From Haloferax marinisediminis (GTDB lineage Archaea > Halobacteriota > Halobacteria > Halobacteriales > Haloferacaceae), in the NCBI RefSeq assembly GCF_009674585.1, contig NZ_WKJP01000001.1, positions 2,480,001 to 2,544,000 of the forward strand: a stretch of DNA of 64,000 nucleotides. Reading direction: 5' to 3'. The notes beneath the pieces are model-generated. The model saw only the letters and a list, made by a program, of their open reading frames with translations, was not told the origin of the DNA and made no database searches. The position numbers and the translations under genes were made by a program. Shown one piece after another: positions 25,060-42,211 of this stretch; within the stretch, counting starts at the first letter, position 1, and the number at the start of each line of letters is the position of its first letter.

Positions 25060-26367
25060 ATGAAACGTACTGGAATCACGACTGTCATGGTTGCGCTCCT
25101 CGTCGTCCTCGCGGGGTGCGCTGGCGGTGCAGGAACACTCACTGAAAGTCCGCAGTCCACGAGCGAAGCGACCGCAGAGACGACTGATGCATCCTCGACC
25201 GGCGGTTCCGACGCCGGTGAGTCTGGCACGGTGAACTTCTACGTCAGTGACGAAGAGAACGCCATCGGCGACTTCGAACACCTCAACGTCACCATCGAAC
25301 GCGTGACGTTCGTGCGCGCGGATGGCGGTGCTGACGACAGTTCGGACGTCGACGCCGAATCCAGCGAGGAGTCGACCGAAAACGAGTCAGACGACGAGAC
25401 GGCGACCGCTGAGCCGACGGTGAACGAGTCGAACACCACGGTCGAATCCAACGCGACGGCCGAGGTTAATGCAACGGCAAACGCGACGGTCGAGGCCGAC
25501 GCTGAAAACGAGTCCGAGGTCGAAGCGGAAAGTGAGGCCGAAGTCGAGGCTGAAGCTGAAGCCGAGTCCGACGACGGCGGGAAAGTGACCTACGAAGTGG
25601 AGAACGTCACCGTCGACCTGACGGAGCTGAAGGGCGACAACGCGACGCTCGTCGGCGCGTACGACCTCGAAAAGGGGAACTACAACGCAGTACACGTCCA
25701 CGTGACCGACGTCAACGGGACGCTCAAGACGGGCGAGAAAGTGAACATCAAACTCCCGAGTAACAAACTCAAACTCAACTCCGACTTCGTCGTCGAACAA
25801 GGTGGGTCCGTGGACTTCGTCTTCGACATCACCGCGTTCGAGGCCGGAGGAAGTGGAAAGTACATCCTCAAGCCCGTCATCAGCGAGTCCGGCACTGACG
25901 TTCCGATAACGAACGTCGACGAGGACGAAGCCGACGAGGCTGAAGAGGACGTCGAGGACGAAGACGAGAACGAAGCGACGGAAGCGAAGGGAGAATCCAA
26001 AGAGAAACGTGACAAAGACGAATCAGCAGCCGAAGGCGACGCAGAAGCCGAGGCAGACGCCGAACTGAACGTCACGTTCGATGGGAACGTGACGGCCGGT
26101 GAGAACGCGACGCTCGTCGTCACCCAGAACGGGACGGTAGTCGAGAACGCCTCGGTCATGGTGAACGACGAAGTCGCCGGGTCGACTGACGCCAACGGAA
26201 CACTCGTCGTCGAGATCCCCGCGACGAGTGAAGTGACGGTGAAAGTCACACACGACGACGCCGAGGCTGAAGTCGAGTTCGAGTTCGAGGATGTGACGGG
26301 CGAAATCACCGAAGACGACTCGCAGAAGGCCGACAACCCCGGAAAATCGGACAACAGTAACGCCTGA
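25060..26367 (+). CDS. DUF4382-type acidic lipoprotein
   Basis: A 435-residue exported protein with a Sec-like signal and lipobox (VVLAGCAGG), without twin arginine. A DUF4382 core is split: NFYVSDEENAIGDFEHLNVTIERVTF near residues 59-85, then after a long acidic insert EVENVTVDLTELKGDNATLVG and NAVHVHVTDVNG up to KYILKPVISES. The insert (about residues 90-175) and a second low-complexity block (about 290-335) are full of Glu, Ala and Asn-x-Ser/Thr sequons, so heavy N-glycosylation is possible. The C-terminal ~90 residues look like an Ig-like or carboxypeptidase-regulatory-like fold (NGTVVENASVMVNDEVAGSTDANG). Function is unknown; probably a cell-surface protein. Confidence 0.85.
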   Translation: MKRTGITTVMVALLVVLAGCAGGAGTLTESPQSTSEATAETTDASSTGGSDAGESGTVNFYVSDEENAIGDFEHLNVTIERVTFVRADGGADDSSDVDAESSEESTENESDDETATAEPTVNESNTTVESNATAEVNATANATVEADAENESEVEAESEAEVEAEAEAESDDGGKVTYEVENVTVDLTELKGDNATLVGAYDLEKGNYNAVHVHVTDVNGTLKTGEKVNIKLPSNKLKLNSDFVVEQGGSVDFVFDITAFEAGGSGKYILKPVISESGTDVPITNVDEDEADEAEEDVEDEDENEATEAKGESKEKRDKDESAAEGDAEAEADAELNVTFDGNVTAGENATLVVTQNGTVVENASVMVNDEVAGSTDANGTLVVEIPATSEVTVKVTHDDAEAEVEFEFEDVTGEITEDDSQKADNPGKSDNSNA

Positions 26368-36030: not shown

Positions 36031-36051
36031 AGACGAACGGACTTCCGGCAT

Positions 36052-37311
36052 ATGAGTGACGGGGACGACGATACGACGGAACTCTCGCCCGAGAGCCTCG
36101 ACGAACGCCTGAACGAGGCACAAGAGGCCCTCGAAGCGGCTGAAACCGAAGCCGACCTCGACGACGTCGAGGCGACGCTCGACGAGATAGAAGCGGATAT
36201 CGAGGCCGCGGACCTGCCGGAGGCCGACGACGAAGACGAAGACGACCCTGCCGAGGAACTCACTTCGCAGCTGTCCGACCTCCGCGACGACCTCGAATCC
36301 CAGCGTGGCCCCTACGCCGACGACGCAATCGAGACGCTCGAAGAAGCGAAGTCGACCATCACGGACACGCGCTGGACCGAACAGGGCGAAGGCGAAGTCG
36401 TCGCTGCGGTCGAAGCGTTCGCAGACGACTTCGGCGGCGTGCTCGACGCCAGCGTCTCGGTCGACGGCGACGACGAGTCCGCGCTCACGGCCGCCATCGA
36501 CGACGCAATCTCGGCTATCGACGCCGCCGGTCTCGACGCCGACGACGACGCAGAGACCATCGCCGACCTCATCGAGGTTGCCGACGGCCTGACCGACGGC
36601 CTCGACGACGCCCAGGAGTGGGACGACCTCGAAACGCGCGAGAAGCTGCAGGCACAGGGCTTCTACGACGTGCTCGGCCACTACAAGGACTACCCGCCGG
36701 AGCTTTCGGCGCTCAAGGAACACGAGAAGCGCGGCAACATCGACATGATCGCGCTCGCGTTCGAGAGCTTCCAGTCCGGCTTCATGGAAGAGTACTGTAT
36801 CGAGGCGTTCACGCGCATGAACGACCCCGCTGCGTACGACGCGGTCGAACCACAGGCCAAGCGCCGGAACAAGGGCGCTATCAAGGCCATCGGCAAGATG
36901 GGTGCCGAAGAGGGTGTCGAGATGCTCATCGACTACTCCGACACCGACAGCGACCCGGCGCTCCAGAAGGTCGTGTTCAAGGCACTCGGCGAAATCGGCT
37001 CGGAAGAGGCGACCCAACCGCTCGCGAACAAACTCGTGACCGAAAACGAGAACGTTCGCTCCGCCGCCGCACGCGCACTCGGTATCCTCGGCGACACGCG
37101 CGCAATCGAGCCGCTCGCCGACGTCATCGCGGACGACGACGTGGACTCCGTGCGCGCCAGCGCGGCGTGGGCGCTCCGCCAGATAGGGACCAAGACGGCC
37201 CTCGAAGCGGCAGCAGAGTACGCTGACGACCGTTCGTACCTCGTCCAGCGTGAGGCCGAACTCGCCGCCGAGTTCCTCGGCGACGACGTCGAGCCTGAAG
37301 CGACAGTCTGA
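36052..37311 (+). CDS. HEAT-repeat domain protein
   Basis: A 419-residue very acidic protein. The first ~215 residues are helical and Asp/Glu/Ala-rich (SLDERLNEAQEALEAAETEADLDD). The last ~200 residues contain HEAT/PBS-lyase-type repeats, for example GAIKAIGKMGAEEGVEMLID, KVVFKALGEIGSEEATQPLA, SAAARALGILGDTRAIEPLA and ASAAWALRQIGTKTALEAAA. Such repeats are protein-protein scaffolds; no catalytic motif is seen. It is divergent from the nitrilase-family gene, and the two may be expressed from one control region. Confidence 0.88.
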   Translation: MSDGDDDTTELSPESLDERLNEAQEALEAAETEADLDDVEATLDEIEADIEAADLPEADDEDEDDPAEELTSQLSDLRDDLESQRGPYADDAIETLEEAKSTITDTRWTEQGEGEVVAAVEAFADDFGGVLDASVSVDGDDESALTAAIDDAISAIDAAGLDADDDAETIADLIEVADGLTDGLDDAQEWDDLETREKLQAQGFYDVLGHYKDYPPELSALKEHEKRGNIDMIALAFESFQSGFMEEYCIEAFTRMNDPAAYDAVEPQAKRRNKGAIKAIGKMGAEEGVEMLIDYSDTDSDPALQKVVFKALGEIGSEEATQPLANKLVTENENVRSAAARALGILGDTRAIEPLADVIADDDVDSVRASAAWALRQIGTKTALEAAAEYADDRSYLVQREAELAAEFLGDDVEPEATV

Positions 37312-37615
37312 ACGCGGAGTCGTCACTCCCGCGCACTGCTGTTCGACTGTATCGACTACCGACATTTCTCCCGGCCGGATGTGCGATTAATACCGGCATA
37401 ACACCCATACGGGCTGTCTCTGTGTTCTTCTGTTGACAGTAAGGATTAACATATTGCTAAGAAAAATATCAACATGTTGACTTTAACACCGGACCAGTGG
37501 GTCTGTCTTATCACAGATATAACAAATCGGCGAGGAACTGTAGGGCTCCTTAACACCCCTCGGAGCGTGACGTAGCGATTCCGAGAGTGGTGGACACATG
37601 ATGGTGTTAACAGAC
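37312..37615. other. AT-rich control region of the first propeller gene
   Basis: About 300 bases without a gene. The centre (37440-37530) is AT-rich and includes TATA-like stretches (AACATATTG, CAGATATAACAAAT) and the perfect palindrome listed below. The last ~25 bases (CACATGATGGTG onward) align with the leader of the second propeller gene. Confidence 0.5.
37469..37480. promoter_or_regulatory. Perfect 12-bp palindrome TCAACATGTTGA
   Basis: A perfect palindrome in the AT-rich upstream region of the first beta-propeller gene, about 135 nt before its start, near TATA-like sequence. It is a candidate binding site for a dimeric regulator; no identical copy was seen before the second propeller gene. 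Confidence 0.45.
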
Positions 37616-39058
37616 ATGGAAACCCAGATTTCGCGGAGAGCGGCACTGAAGGCGCTCGGCGTGAGCGGAGTGGTACTCGCTGGTGGAGCGACAGCGATAT
37701 CGGCACAGTCGGACGACGCGTCGAGCGACGTCGGCGAACTGGAACTCATCTACGAGTTCGAACCGCCGGAAGGCTCACCGCAGGAACCTCCGTTCGGCCA
37801 ACTCCCGGAGAACGTCGCAACCGACCCGTATGGAAACAAGTTCGTGAGCGTCCCATCGCAGTCACAAATCTGGAAGTTCGGAGCGGACGACGAACCGGTC
37901 GACCCCCCGTTCCTCCAGTTCGAATCGACAGAAGAGTTCCTCGTCGGGCCGACTGGCGTCGAATACGACCCGAATGGAAGGCTCTACTCGGCGTTCGTGA
38001 GTGACCTGTCGAGCTCGGAAGACGCCGAAACGAACGGTGTGTACGAAATCGACGACGACGGGACGTACGAACTCTACGCAGAGATTTCGAACGACATCGA
38101 AGACTTCCCGTCGTTCCCCAACGACATCACGCTGCTCGAAAACTCATTGCTCGTCACCGACAGCTTCAGCGGCGTTATCTGGGAAGTCAAACGGGGTCGG
38201 ACGGAAGTGTGGGCCGGTGAGTTGTGGGACGGTGAGGACGACTTCCCGACCGGTCCGCTCGCCCCACCGGCACCGGTCGACGGGGCACCCCAATTCGGCC
38301 CGAACGGTCTCCAGTTCACGGAGGACAGAGACGCCCTCTACGTGGCGAACACTGGGAAAGGGACGATCGTCAAGATTCCACTCGATTCGTTCGGGAACCC
38401 AGACGACCCCGAAGTGTTCGTCGAGGGGCTCGTCGCCCCGGACGGCCTCGCGATGGACGTCGACGAGAACCTCTACGTCGCCGACAATGGCGCGAATCAA
38501 ATCCTTCGCATCACGCCCGACGGAGACGTCGAAGTACTCGCCGAGAACGAGGTGATGGCCGAGACGGACAGTGAAACGGAGACGACCACGGCTGACGCGG
38601 AGACAACGACAGAGGAAGGGACGACCACACCTGAAGCAGAGACGACTACAGCAGACGGAGCGGAGACGACGACTTCCGAAGAAGAGACCACCACCGAGGA
38701 GGAAACGACGACCGAGGCGGCGACTGACACAACAGACGAGGAAACGACCACAGCAGGTGGAGAAGAGACGACGGACACTGACACTCCCACACCTGAAGCG
38801 GAGACAACCACGTCGGAAGAAGAGACGACGACTTCCGAAGAGGAGACCACCACCGACACGGAAACGACCACGGACGAACCCGAGACCGACAGCGTCCCCG
38901 TTCTCGACCAGCCAGCGGACGTGACGTTCGGAGCCACAGAGGACCAACGCGAGACGCTGTTCATCGTCAATCTTGCACTGACGTCCCAGTTCGAAGCGCC
39001 CAAACCGAGCTTCATGAAGCTCGACGTCGGTATCGAGGGGCTTCCAATCGAACGCTGA
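37616..39058 (+). CDS. Tat-exported beta-propeller protein with Thr/Glu-rich insert, paralogue 1
   Basis: A 480-residue exported protein. The signal METQISRRAALKALG has the twin arginine, followed by a hydrophobic core and AISAQ. The body is an SMP-30/NHL-like beta-propeller: ATDPYGNKFVSVPSQSQIWKFG, LVGPTGVEYDPNGRLYSAF, FPNDITLLENSLLVTDSFSGVIW, PDGLAMDVDENLYVADNGANQI. Between the fifth and last blade, residues about 315-425 are a TTT/EEE-rich low-complexity insert. The ATG at 37616 was preferred over 37598 and 37601 because the preceding 20 bases align with the noncoding leader of the paralogue. It may bind sugars, lactones or a surface ligand; function is unknown. Confidence 0.85.
   Translation: METQISRRAALKALGVSGVVLAGGATAISAQSDDASSDVGELELIYEFEPPEGSPQEPPFGQLPENVATDPYGNKFVSVPSQSQIWKFGADDEPVDPPFLQFESTEEFLVGPTGVEYDPNGRLYSAFVSDLSSSEDAETNGVYEIDDDGTYELYAEISNDIEDFPSFPNDITLLENSLLVTDSFSGVIWEVKRGRTEVWAGELWDGEDDFPTGPLAPPAPVDGAPQFGPNGLQFTEDRDALYVANTGKGTIVKIPLDSFGNPDDPEVFVEGLVAPDGLAMDVDENLYVADNGANQILRITPDGDVEVLAENEVMAETDSETETTTADAETTTEEGTTTPEAETTTADGAETTTSEEETTTEEETTTEAATDTTDEETTTAGGEETTDTDTPTPEAETTTSEEETTTSEEETTTDTETTTDEPETDSVPVLDQPADVTFGATEDQRETLFIVNLALTSQFEAPKPSFMKLDVGIEGLPIER
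38558..38890 (+). repeat. Thr/Glu-rich coding repeat in propeller 1
   Basis: About 330 bases coding for TTT, EE and TSEEE runs, mainly ACG/ACC/ACA and GAG/GAA codons. The insert sits in the same place as the Asp-rich insert in the paralogue at 39322 and is probably an extended, glycosylatable linker. Confidence 0.75.
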
Positions 39059-39321
39059 GCGCCCGTACCCAGTTGAGAGTCTCAGTACGAACGGCGGCAT
39101 TTTTTCGGGGACGGTCGGATACGAATCGCTGATCCGTGAGTCTGCAGAACATGACATTTAAACAGCTTATTGGTTCGTATAACGTCACTCCACAACTGTA
39201 TGACATATTTTGCAGAAATATAACAATCAGCCAACAAACTCTACTTTCTACTGAACGCCCGACTGACCCTCGGTGACAGTGAGACTTCTGTAATCGGGCG
39301 GCACATGGTGGTGAGCAAACG

Positions 39322-40554
39322 ATGACACTATTCACATCACGGAGAACGATGTTGAAGGCACTCGGGGTAGGCGGGATGACGCTTGCCGCCGGCTGTCTGG
39401 CTGCGAGCGAACCGACGACTGCGGCGACGCAGGTGCAATCGGATGATACTGCTGTAGGACAGCTAGAACTCCTGTACGAGTTCGCTCGTCCGACCCCACA
39501 GATGACGTTCCCCGGTGAACTTCCGGAGAACGTCGCAATCGACGCGAGCGGAAACAAGTACGTGAGCATCGCGTCGCTCGGGCACGTCTGGAAGTTCGGC
39601 CCCGACAACGAGCTCGAACAACCGAACGCCGCCGAGGGTGTTCCACCCTTCGCGGTGTTCCCCGTCAGTGGAACCTTCCTCGTCGGGACCATCGGGCTCG
39701 AAGTCGACGCCGACGGGACTGTGTACGTCTGTTTCGCGAGCGACTTCGACAAACTCGAAGAAGACCCAGGCGAATCTGCGACGAACGGTATCTGGACGGT
39801 GAAGGAAGGAGAAGCGCCCGAACTGTTCGCAGAGATTACGCCGCTCGCAGCGGGTGCGCTCACGTTCCCCAACGACCTCGTACTCTTCGACGATTCCCTC
39901 CTCGTCACGGATAGCCTCAGCGGCGTGGTCTGGCAGGTTCGAAAAGACGAGGCAACAGTGTGGTCCGACAGCCCACTTCTCGCCGGGGGCGAAGACTTTG
40001 GTGCCGACGGGATTCAGGTCTCGAGAGACGGAGCGACCGTCTACGTGACCAACATCGCTCGCGGCTCTATCGTCGCGATTCCAGTCAACGAAGATGGGAC
40101 CGCAGGAGAAGCGTCTGTGTTCGTCGATGGACTGGCGGGTCCAGACGGTCTGGCGATGGACGTCGACGGAAACCTCTACGTCGCTGACAACAGAGGCAAC
40201 CAAATCGTCCGTGTCTCGCCTGACGCAAACGTCGAGGTACTCGCGCAGAACGACGGACAGGACGACGAAGATACTGACGACGACGGAGAGCAAGAGCAGA
40301 ACGGAGACCAAGACCAGGATAGAGACCGGGACGGAGACCAAGACGGTGAGCAGGACCAAGACAGAGACAGAGACCAAGACTGCGTGACTGAAGACGGGGC
40401 CCCCGTTCTCGACAGCCCTGCAGACGTGACGTTTGGAACTACCGAGGGTGAAGAGACGTCCGTCTTCATCGTCAACCTCGCGTTCTCGGCCGACCCGAAA
40501 CCGAGTCTGATGAAACTCGACGTCGGAATCCAAGGATTCCCTGCCACCGAATAA
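39322..40554 (+). CDS. Tat-exported beta-propeller lipoprotein with Asp/Gln/Arg-rich insert, paralogue 2
   Basis: A 410-residue paralogue of the preceding gene, about 260 nt downstream. The signal has twin arginine (FTSRRTMLKALG) and, unlike paralogue 1, a lipobox (LAAGCLAAS), so it should be lipid-anchored. Propeller blades match one to one: AIDASGNKYVSIASLGHVWKFG, LVGTIGLEVDADGTVYVCF, FPNDLVLFDDSLLVTDSLSGVVW, PDGLAMDVDGNLYVADNRGNQI, and the end KPSLMKLDVGIQGF. Residues 310-354 form a DQDRDRDGDQ-type insert in place of the TTE insert. The pair arose by duplication; each copy gained its own insert. Confidence 0.85.
   Translation: MTLFTSRRTMLKALGVGGMTLAAGCLAASEPTTAATQVQSDDTAVGQLELLYEFARPTPQMTFPGELPENVAIDASGNKYVSIASLGHVWKFGPDNELEQPNAAEGVPPFAVFPVSGTFLVGTIGLEVDADGTVYVCFASDFDKLEEDPGESATNGIWTVKEGEAPELFAEITPLAAGALTFPNDLVLFDDSLLVTDSLSGVVWQVRKDEATVWSDSPLLAGGEDFGADGIQVSRDGATVYVTNIARGSIVAIPVNEDGTAGEASVFVDGLAGPDGLAMDVDGNLYVADNRGNQIVRVSPDANVEVLAQNDGQDDEDTDDDGEQEQNGDQDQDRDRDGDQDGEQDQDRDRDQDCVTEDGAPVLDSPADVTFGTTEGEETSVFIVNLAFSADPKPSLMKLDVGIQGFPATE
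40252..40383 (+). repeat. Hexanucleotide-period Asp-X coding repeat in propeller 2
   Basis: GAC-NNN repeats encode Asp alternating with Gln, Arg and Gly. Similar hexamers (GACGGGGATAGAGAC-like) occur in the noncoding gap near 55760-55800. Confidence 0.7.
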
Positions 40555-40627
40555 CCCAGCGAGCAGCGTCGGGAGAACACCGCTCCGCGACGAACCTTTT
40601 TGAACCATTACGGCCCCACCGCGGGGT

Positions 40628-42211
40628 GTGTTCCACCGGGTCGCCCTCGTCGTCATCGTACTCGCCGCCGTCGCCCCCACACCGATTGCGGCCACCACCG
40701 GTCCACCCAGTACACCCACGACCGACCCACCTGAGGCCCACATCGTCGCCGCGCTCCCCGACCCGGCAACTCCCGACGACCGTGGGGAGTTCGTCGTCGT
40801 CACCGCGCCTGAGGGGGCCAACCTCACCCTCGACGACGGCGAACAGCGAACGTCCTTCGTCGCCCCCGGTGGAGCAGTCGCCGTCACAACGGACTCCAGA
40901 GCAACGGCGGACCTCACGAACCACCCCGTCGTCTCTCCCGGTCTCGACCTCGCGAACAGCGGCGAAACGGTCACGCTCAGCGTGGACGGCCACGTCGTCG
41001 ACCGACTCGTCTACGACAGGAGCCGAGAGGGGGCACTGCTCGAACGCCGCGATGGAGTGTGGCAGTGGTGGCCGCGAACGCTTCCGAGGCGACCCGTCTC
41101 GACACACGGTTCGGCCGAGGCGACACTCTTCGTCCTCCCTGACTCGCCCACGGTTCCACTGACGACGCTCCGAACTGCCGACGAACGTATCCTCCTCGCC
41201 GGCTACGTGGTCTCGTCGCCACGCGTTGCTGACGCACTCGTGGCCGCCCACGAGCGAGGAGTTCACGTCGAAGTGCTCGTAGATGACGCCCCCGTTGGCG
41301 GGTTCCCCGAAGCGTCGGCCCGCGTCCTCGACAGACTCGCCGCGTCGGGAGTCACGGTGCGCGTCGTCGGTGACCCGCACTCGTTTCACCACGCGAAGTA
41401 CGCCGTCGTCGACGACGAGGCACTCATCACCACGGAGAACTGGAAACCCGCCGGGACGGGCGGGTCGAAGAGTCGTGGATGGGGTGTCGTCGTCGATTCA
41501 CCGAGCGTCGCAACCGACCTCGCATCGACGTTCGCGGACGATGCCGCTCTGCCCGCGACTCGCCGCTGGGAACTGTTTCGAACAGGCCGCCAGTTCGTCG
41601 TCACCGACGTGGCGAACGGGTCGTTCCCCGCTCGCGTGGCCCCGAAAACAGTTCGGGTCGACAGTATCGCCGTCATCCTCGCGCCGGACAACGCCGAACA
41701 GGCGGTCGTCGACCGACTGGACGGCGCAGACCGCCGAATCGACGTGATACAACCAAGTGTCGAAGGTGACGGTCCGTTCGTCGTCGCGTTGAAGCGAGCG
41801 GCGAAACGAGGCGTCCGCGTCCGGTTGTTGCTCGGAAGTGCGTGGTACGTCGACGACGACAACCGCGAACTCGCCGACCGGTTGAACCGATGGGCCGACC
41901 GAACTGGGAATCCACTCTCGGTTCGCCTCGCTCGCCCTGCGGGGCGCTACGGCGCGGTCCACGCAAAAGGCGTCGTCGCCGACGATACCGTCGTCGTCGG
42001 CAGTCTCAACTGGAATCGGCATTCTGCCCGCAAGAACCGGGAGGTAGCTGTTGCTCTCGTGGACCCCGCAGCGGCGACGTATTATCGTGAGGTGTTCGAC
42101 GCCGACTGGAACGCGAGCGAGCGAGGAGGACGACCATCACTCGTCGTCGCGGCCGTTGCGGCCGTCCTCGTCGGACTGGCGGCGCTCAGGAGGGTCGAGT
42201 TCGAAGGATGA
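40628..42211 (+). CDS. Exported phospholipase-D-family protein with lamin-tail-like domain
   Basis: A 527-residue protein starting at GTG 40628. A signal peptide (ALVVIVLAAVAPTPIAA) comes first, then a ~120-residue beta domain (HIVAALPDPATPDDRGEFVVV... LANSGETVTLSVDG) resembling the lamin-tail domain of surface nucleases. Two PLD domains follow: HHAKYAVVDDEALITTENW (about residue 258) and VHAKGVVADDTVVVGSLNW (about 440), each with HxKx4D-type catalytic residues. A C-terminal hydrophobic helix (VVAAVAAVLVGLAAL) anchors it. It probably cleaves phosphodiesters, DNA or phospholipid, outside the cell. Start and signal fit a Sec-exported, membrane-anchored product. Confidence 0.87.
   Translation: MFHRVALVVIVLAAVAPTPIAATTGPPSTPTTDPPEAHIVAALPDPATPDDRGEFVVVTAPEGANLTLDDGEQRTSFVAPGGAVAVTTDSRATADLTNHPVVSPGLDLANSGETVTLSVDGHVVDRLVYDRSREGALLERRDGVWQWWPRTLPRRPVSTHGSAEATLFVLPDSPTVPLTTLRTADERILLAGYVVSSPRVADALVAAHERGVHVEVLVDDAPVGGFPEASARVLDRLAASGVTVRVVGDPHSFHHAKYAVVDDEALITTENWKPAGTGGSKSRGWGVVVDSPSVATDLASTFADDAALPATRRWELFRTGRQFVVTDVANGSFPARVAPKTVRVDSIAVILAPDNAEQAVVDRLDGADRRIDVIQPSVEGDGPFVVALKRAAKRGVRVRLLLGSAWYVDDDNRELADRLNRWADRTGNPLSVRLARPAGRYGAVHAKGVVADDTVVVGSLNWNRHSARKNREVAVALVDPAAATYYREVFDADWNASERGGRPSLVVAAVAAVLVGLAALRRVEFEG

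Follow-up and report, generated by a model that had tools for sequence, protein, structure and literature searches.

Two tandem genes of Haloferax marinisediminis encode paralogous six-bladed beta-propellers, predicted to be exported, that carry two different low-complexity inserts at the same connection, between blades 5 and 6. The inserts were most likely gained separately in the two genes, at a position that tolerates such sequence and needs none. Both genes lie in the 64,000-nucleotide stretch of DNA analysed here, which we call the window (contig NZ_WKJP01000001.1, positions 2,480,001 to 2,544,000 of the forward strand). Taken as a whole, we are fairly confident that the best explanation is a pair of exported, putative lactonase-like propellers with separately gained, optional loops. 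The finding is real but largely ordinary; what makes it useful is that the insert states form a natural series.

Two propeller paralogues with Tat signals

Propeller A (37616..39058, + strand, 480 aa) and propeller C (39322..40554, + strand, 410 aa) are tandem genes with intact open reading frames. An in-frame ATG at 37598 (MMVLTDMETQ) lies upstream of the start of A, and since its MMVL is kept in H. profundi and in another Haloferax genome, G006, A may begin there, 6 residues earlier. The two proteins are 44% identical over 330 aa (pairwise comparison, E 2e-82), with a second, separate match at the shared C-terminus (PADVTFG...KLDVGI). Against the Pfam SGL model (PF08450, cut-off 26.3 bits) A scores 53.6, C 58.6 and the single protein of H. 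marinum 62.7 bits, the strongest stretch being the second half. The ScyD/ScyE family (NCBIfam NF033206) was considered and rejected, as its scores of 43.1 and 37.6 bits fall below the cut-off of 80. A and C are additions to the family of SGL propellers, and the enzyme family itself is ordinary.

The AlphaFold2 (AF2) models of A and C, built on a small alignment, are six-bladed propellers. In A the strands are at residues 66-101, 112-156, 168-201, 229-269, 275-310 and 433-470, the last of these being blade 6 (38912..39025, + strand), which follows the insert. An N-terminal strand of A at residues 42-47 (37739..37756, + strand) is most simply read in the model as the velcro closure of blade 6. 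Mean pLDDT is 63 for A and 66 for C, low because the signal and the insert fall below 50; the blades mostly lie at 70-95, with blade 6 weaker. The closest solved structure to A in the PDB is 2p4o (Z 34.8, rmsd 2.6, 294 residues aligned), which a sequence profile also matches over nearly the whole length (E 6e-37).

Both proteins start with a twin-Arg signal. Haloarchaeal Tat lipoproteins have a lipobox ending in G-C, with 12-21 residues between the second Arg and the Cys (PMC2945643). C conforms to this pattern, with RR at residues 7-8 and the lipobox LAAGC (39382..39396, + strand) placing Cys25 16 residues after the second Arg. The signal of A (SRRAALKALG..., 37616..37708, + strand) has no lipobox despite its twin Arg, and the entire protein contains zero cysteines, so A cannot be lipid-anchored. 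Judged from their sequences, C would be anchored through its lipidated cysteine, and A would be released or held via non-lipid contacts; the contrast between a free and an anchored copy is thus well based. A second cysteine of C, Cys354 (codon 40381-40383), stands at the end of its insert and is conserved in the C protein of H. profundi (DQDC); it perhaps serves in a disulfide or as a second attachment. A preliminary description of this DNA had proposed exported propeller paralogues with a common C-terminal end, one released and one anchored, and the Tat signals, SGL scores and pairwise matches agree with it on each point.

Different inserts at one connection

The insert of A occupies residues 313-425 (38552..38890, + strand), between strand D of blade 5 and strand A of blade 6, with ~111 Thr/Glu-rich residues (48 T, 31 E, net charge -41). 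That of C spans residues 313-361 (40258..40404, + strand) and comprises about 41-55 Asp-X residues (18 D, 9 Q, 4 R, net charge -18). Both are predicted to be disordered (pLDDT <50 in AF2), in line with the earlier suggestion of different low-complexity inserts forming a flexible surface loop at one inter-blade position. They have no alignable sequence in common (20% identity over 50 aligned residues). The pattern TTTxxxxTTTxxxxTTT, of which A holds one of only two matches in the entire 3.49-Mb genome, is far beyond chance.

Counted from strand three of blade 5 up to the PADV motif, this segment is 63-134 residues long in A and C and 17-21 in insert-free homologues, which confirms that the position tolerates inserts, as had been supposed. 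No insert is present in B of H. profundi, in the one propeller of H. marinum (an orthologue of A) or in about 30 haloarchaeal homologues. Given an insert-free orthologue, an insert-free paralogue and these homologues, we conclude that the connection needs no insert; the same genes, together with 2p4o, contradict the idea that an extended linker may be required here. The preliminary description had also named what would speak against its reading, namely orthologues with neither insert nor surface location. Insert-free orthologues do exist, but they are still Tat-exported.

A sample of 392 genomes from the order contained homologues in 46. Among the about 37 distinct genes measured, a long segment occurs only in A and C of Haloferax and in a pair of genes from one further genus; in one homologue (L139) the absence of an insert was judged from its sequence, the pattern anchor being misplaced there. 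The two genes of the other genus (g40; L033 and L038) have a Ser/Glu-rich insert of ~75-85 residues ahead of the final strand of blade 5, plus a low-complexity C-terminal tail. We rejected this insert as the same event as those of A and C, since it lies before, not after, that strand.

How the insert of A arose can be read from its relatives. In H. profundi it is an in-frame 21-bp array of 13.2 copies with the unit TTTAEEG, in G006 it has 11.9 copies of a 21-bp repeat, and in the window genome the array has decayed to 3.2 clear copies (38787..38853, + strand). These arrays identify the insert as a minisatellite expansion, and the loop of A would have grown through in-frame expansion of a 21-bp (7-residue) unit, that of C through Asp-X codon repeats. 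The propeller core is under strong purifying selection, with dN/dS of about 0.14 and 83-93% identity between species. Inserts of orthologues are 50-81% identical (50-57% when that of the window genome is compared with its relatives), with composition and frame kept. The loop is likely to be solvent-exposed and to leave the fold undisturbed, and its sequence drifts fast.

Alternatively, the Thr/Glu insert of A could form a mucin-like stalk with O-linked sugars, resembling the Thr-rich region found in S-layer glycoproteins of haloarchaea. The composition fits, with 48 Thr in 111 residues; in Hfx. volcanii and Hbt. salinarum, Glc-Gal disaccharides decorate the Thr-rich region of the S-layer glycoprotein (PMC2913515), and O-glycopeptides are present in the Hfx. 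volcanii proteome (PMC8241124). We nevertheless consider such a stalk somewhat doubtful, as the insert sits inside the propeller rather than before a membrane anchor and the C insert is almost without Ser or Thr. In our preferred reading the loop is a dispensable surface feature under weak selection, which may contribute charge and hydration at high salinity and might in A also offer Thr residues for O-glycosylation.

Elsewhere in the window, a lipoprotein at 25060-26367 (+ strand) matches DUF4382 in two stretches around a long acidic low-complexity sequence rich in N-x-S/T sequons. It parallels the propeller inserts, so acidic low-complexity insertion in exported haloarchaeal domains is not limited to SGL propellers. 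Our search of the literature on haloarchaeal low-complexity insertions found nothing direct.

History of the locus and of the inserts

The two genes sit between a HEAT-repeat protein gene (36046..37311, + strand) and a PLD-like protein gene (40628..42211, + strand), a flanking pair that is conserved in Haloferax. Propeller genes occur in 4 of 15 Haloferax genomes, always between these two neighbours; in the other 11 the HEAT and PLD genes are about 95-130 bp apart and the junction is empty. Copy number at the junction (37312-40627 here) is therefore 0, 1, 2 or 3 among Haloferax species, with two copies in the window genome (A, C), three in H. profundi (A, B, C), one in G006 (A) and one in H. 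marinum. The Thr/Glu insert is found in all three A orthologues (window, H. profundi, G006) and the Asp/Gln/Arg insert in both C orthologues.

In the gene tree, B falls outside (C,(marinum,A)), with supports of 95/98 and 100/100, and the flanking genes of the carriers give (marinum,(window,(G006,profundi))), where the node joining H. marinum is weak (61). Taken together, the two trees indicate that three paralogues were probably present in the common ancestor and that losses followed, the H. marinum gene being an insert-free orthologue of A. At least three tandem paralogues (A, B and C) would thus have existed in the ancestor of the four species and are now differently retained.

The preliminary description held that the inserts had replaced each other while the fold stayed. 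This does not fit the tree, in which each type is constant within its own orthologous group and genes without an insert (B of H. profundi, and that of H. marinum) lie around them. A related possibility is that one old insert, present in the ancestor of A and C, was rewritten into the two types and lost in H. marinum. Both inserts occupy the same connection, and by presence/absence parsimony one gain in the ancestor of C, H. marinum and A plus the H. marinum loss takes as many steps as two gains. A single gain would also require a complete rewrite, and so makes more assumptions than two gains; the two types share no alignable sequence, each being constant within its group, B and all outgroups are insert-free, and the insert of A has a clear origin in repeat expansion. 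For these reasons we regard a single old insert as possible but decidedly improbable, and separate gains in A and C as the most likely history.

Upstream regions

The preliminary description also found the leaders of the two genes alike. This was correct for an element about 100 bp upstream and for the stretch just before the start codons; the remainder is near random identity. The element, GATATAACAAA (37516..37526, + strand), lies about 100 bp before A, and the same element recurs as AAATATAACAAT (39216..39227, + strand) about 105 bp before C. As the 11-mer RATATAACAAW it has only two copies in the 3.49-Mb genome, these two. All seven Haloferax copies have a match at this position, and three homologues belonging to another family have one that reads ATAACAAT, so that ten related genes in two families have it at equal distance. 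A private regulatory element was considered and rejected, because its 9-mer core occurs 30 times, about as often as in the reversed control, and only its position is conserved. Since this core is common and several of its occurrences lie 34-40 nt before the start codons of other genes, we read the element as a promoter core, probably an ordinary one, which would leave a leader of roughly 70 nt.

Putative metal site and role of the loops

A candidate metal site in A consists, as residues only, of Glu65, Asn169, Asn230 and Asp276. The four positions read E/N/N-or-D/D in 32 of 32 homologues, with E, the second-position N and D invariant; at the third, C and some other homologues have Asp instead of Asn. 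The propeller lactonase DrSOD binds Ca2+ via Glu200, Asn290, Asn339 and Asp381 (PMC12362111), and the residues of A appear to correspond to these ligands in order and kind, a match based on order and motif. The likeliest reading is that A and C are Tat-exported SMP-30/gluconolactonase-type propellers that would act outside the membrane as putative calcium-dependent lactonase-like hydrolases. Gene context gives no pointer to the substrate, as the genes around the homologues, compared in five other genomes, are unrelated and show no common pathway; an operon or pathway context was ruled out on this ground.

The propellers could instead be non-enzymatic scaffolds at the cell surface that bind ligands or proteins in the manner of NHL domains. 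Blade 5 matches NHL repeats above the cut-off, and NHL domains, Diels-Alderases and designed Pizza propellers are among the fold matches. With an invariant E-N-(N/D)-D site in 32 homologues and a putative lactonase as the best match, we think a scaffold unlikely. The variation at the third ligand, together with the many NHL and Diels-Alderase relatives, leaves room for a binding or other role.

The metal site also bears on whether the inserts are functional. They could act as long acidic bristles around the opening of the active-site tunnel, where they would control substrate entry, retain ions or keep the propeller at a distance from the S-layer; their gain in both genes would then be convergence favoured by a benefit of this position. 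By topology, strand A of blade 6 is modelled to start on the face of the four putative ligands, which lie at the strand A starts of blades 1, 3, 4 and 5, so the loop would be on the same face as the site. Two paralogues gained inserts at one connection, with frame kept in three and two species respectively and composition maintained while the sequence drifts. We nonetheless judge functional inserts to be rather improbable, because the H. marinum orthologue of A, B and about 30 homologues lack them, their sequence is not conserved, and another genus enlarged a different loop. In the least probable of the readings considered, the minisatellite of A and the Asp-X repeat of C would have converged on disordered, acidic bristles around the tunnel opening of a secreted propeller enzyme that uses calcium, and these would adjust the entry of substrates or the capture of ions at salt saturation.

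Returning to the preferred reading, A and C are probably lactonase-like hydrolases, held at the surface or released, whose halophilic loops are free to grow. They and their relatives provide a natural series at a single connection (no insert, Asp-X insert, Thr/Glu minisatellite insert), with the fold under similar selection throughout. This makes a clean natural experiment on how a long disordered loop enters a folded domain, in a genetically tractable genus, and it can help to ask whether the acidic low-complexity loops of haloarchaeal exported proteins are adaptive or just tolerated.

Comparison with known systems

The structure most similar to A, 2p4o, is a structural genomics target from Nostoc punctiforme (NPUN_F0524) described as a putative SMP-30/gluconolactonase/LRE-like lactonase. 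We know of no assay of its function, and our literature search on it found nothing direct. It has the six-bladed fold in common with A over nearly the full length, as well as the ligand positions (LENLA / FLNGI / AANGL / DDFAF) and a similar C-terminal end (VAFG...VRLEVGKPGYP), but it is cyanobacterial and has no insert between blades 5 and 6. More distant are SMP-30/regucalcin, the XC5397 gluconolactonase, DrP35 and squid DFPase, which share the fold (Z about 27) and the type of metal site but differ in identity (13-21%) and in being cytosolic or otherwise located, and have no insert.

The closest parallel for the metal site is the beta-propeller domain of DrSOD (9m58/9m59), a Ca-dependent 2-coumaranone lactonase of the SGL six-bladed type that binds Ca2+ by Glu, Asn, Asn and Asp in the same order (PMC12362111). 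In contrast to the haloarchaeal propellers, it is fused to a Cu/Zn-SOD domain, has no low-complexity loop and shares 22% identity. For the insert itself, the nearest likeness is the Thr-rich region of haloarchaeal S-layer glycoproteins, which is Thr-rich, acidic and extracytoplasmic and can be O-glycosylated (PMC2913515). The insert of A is likewise Thr-rich and acidic, would be extracytoplasmic and may be glycosylated. The S-layer region precedes a membrane anchor, whereas the insert of A sits between two blades of a propeller.
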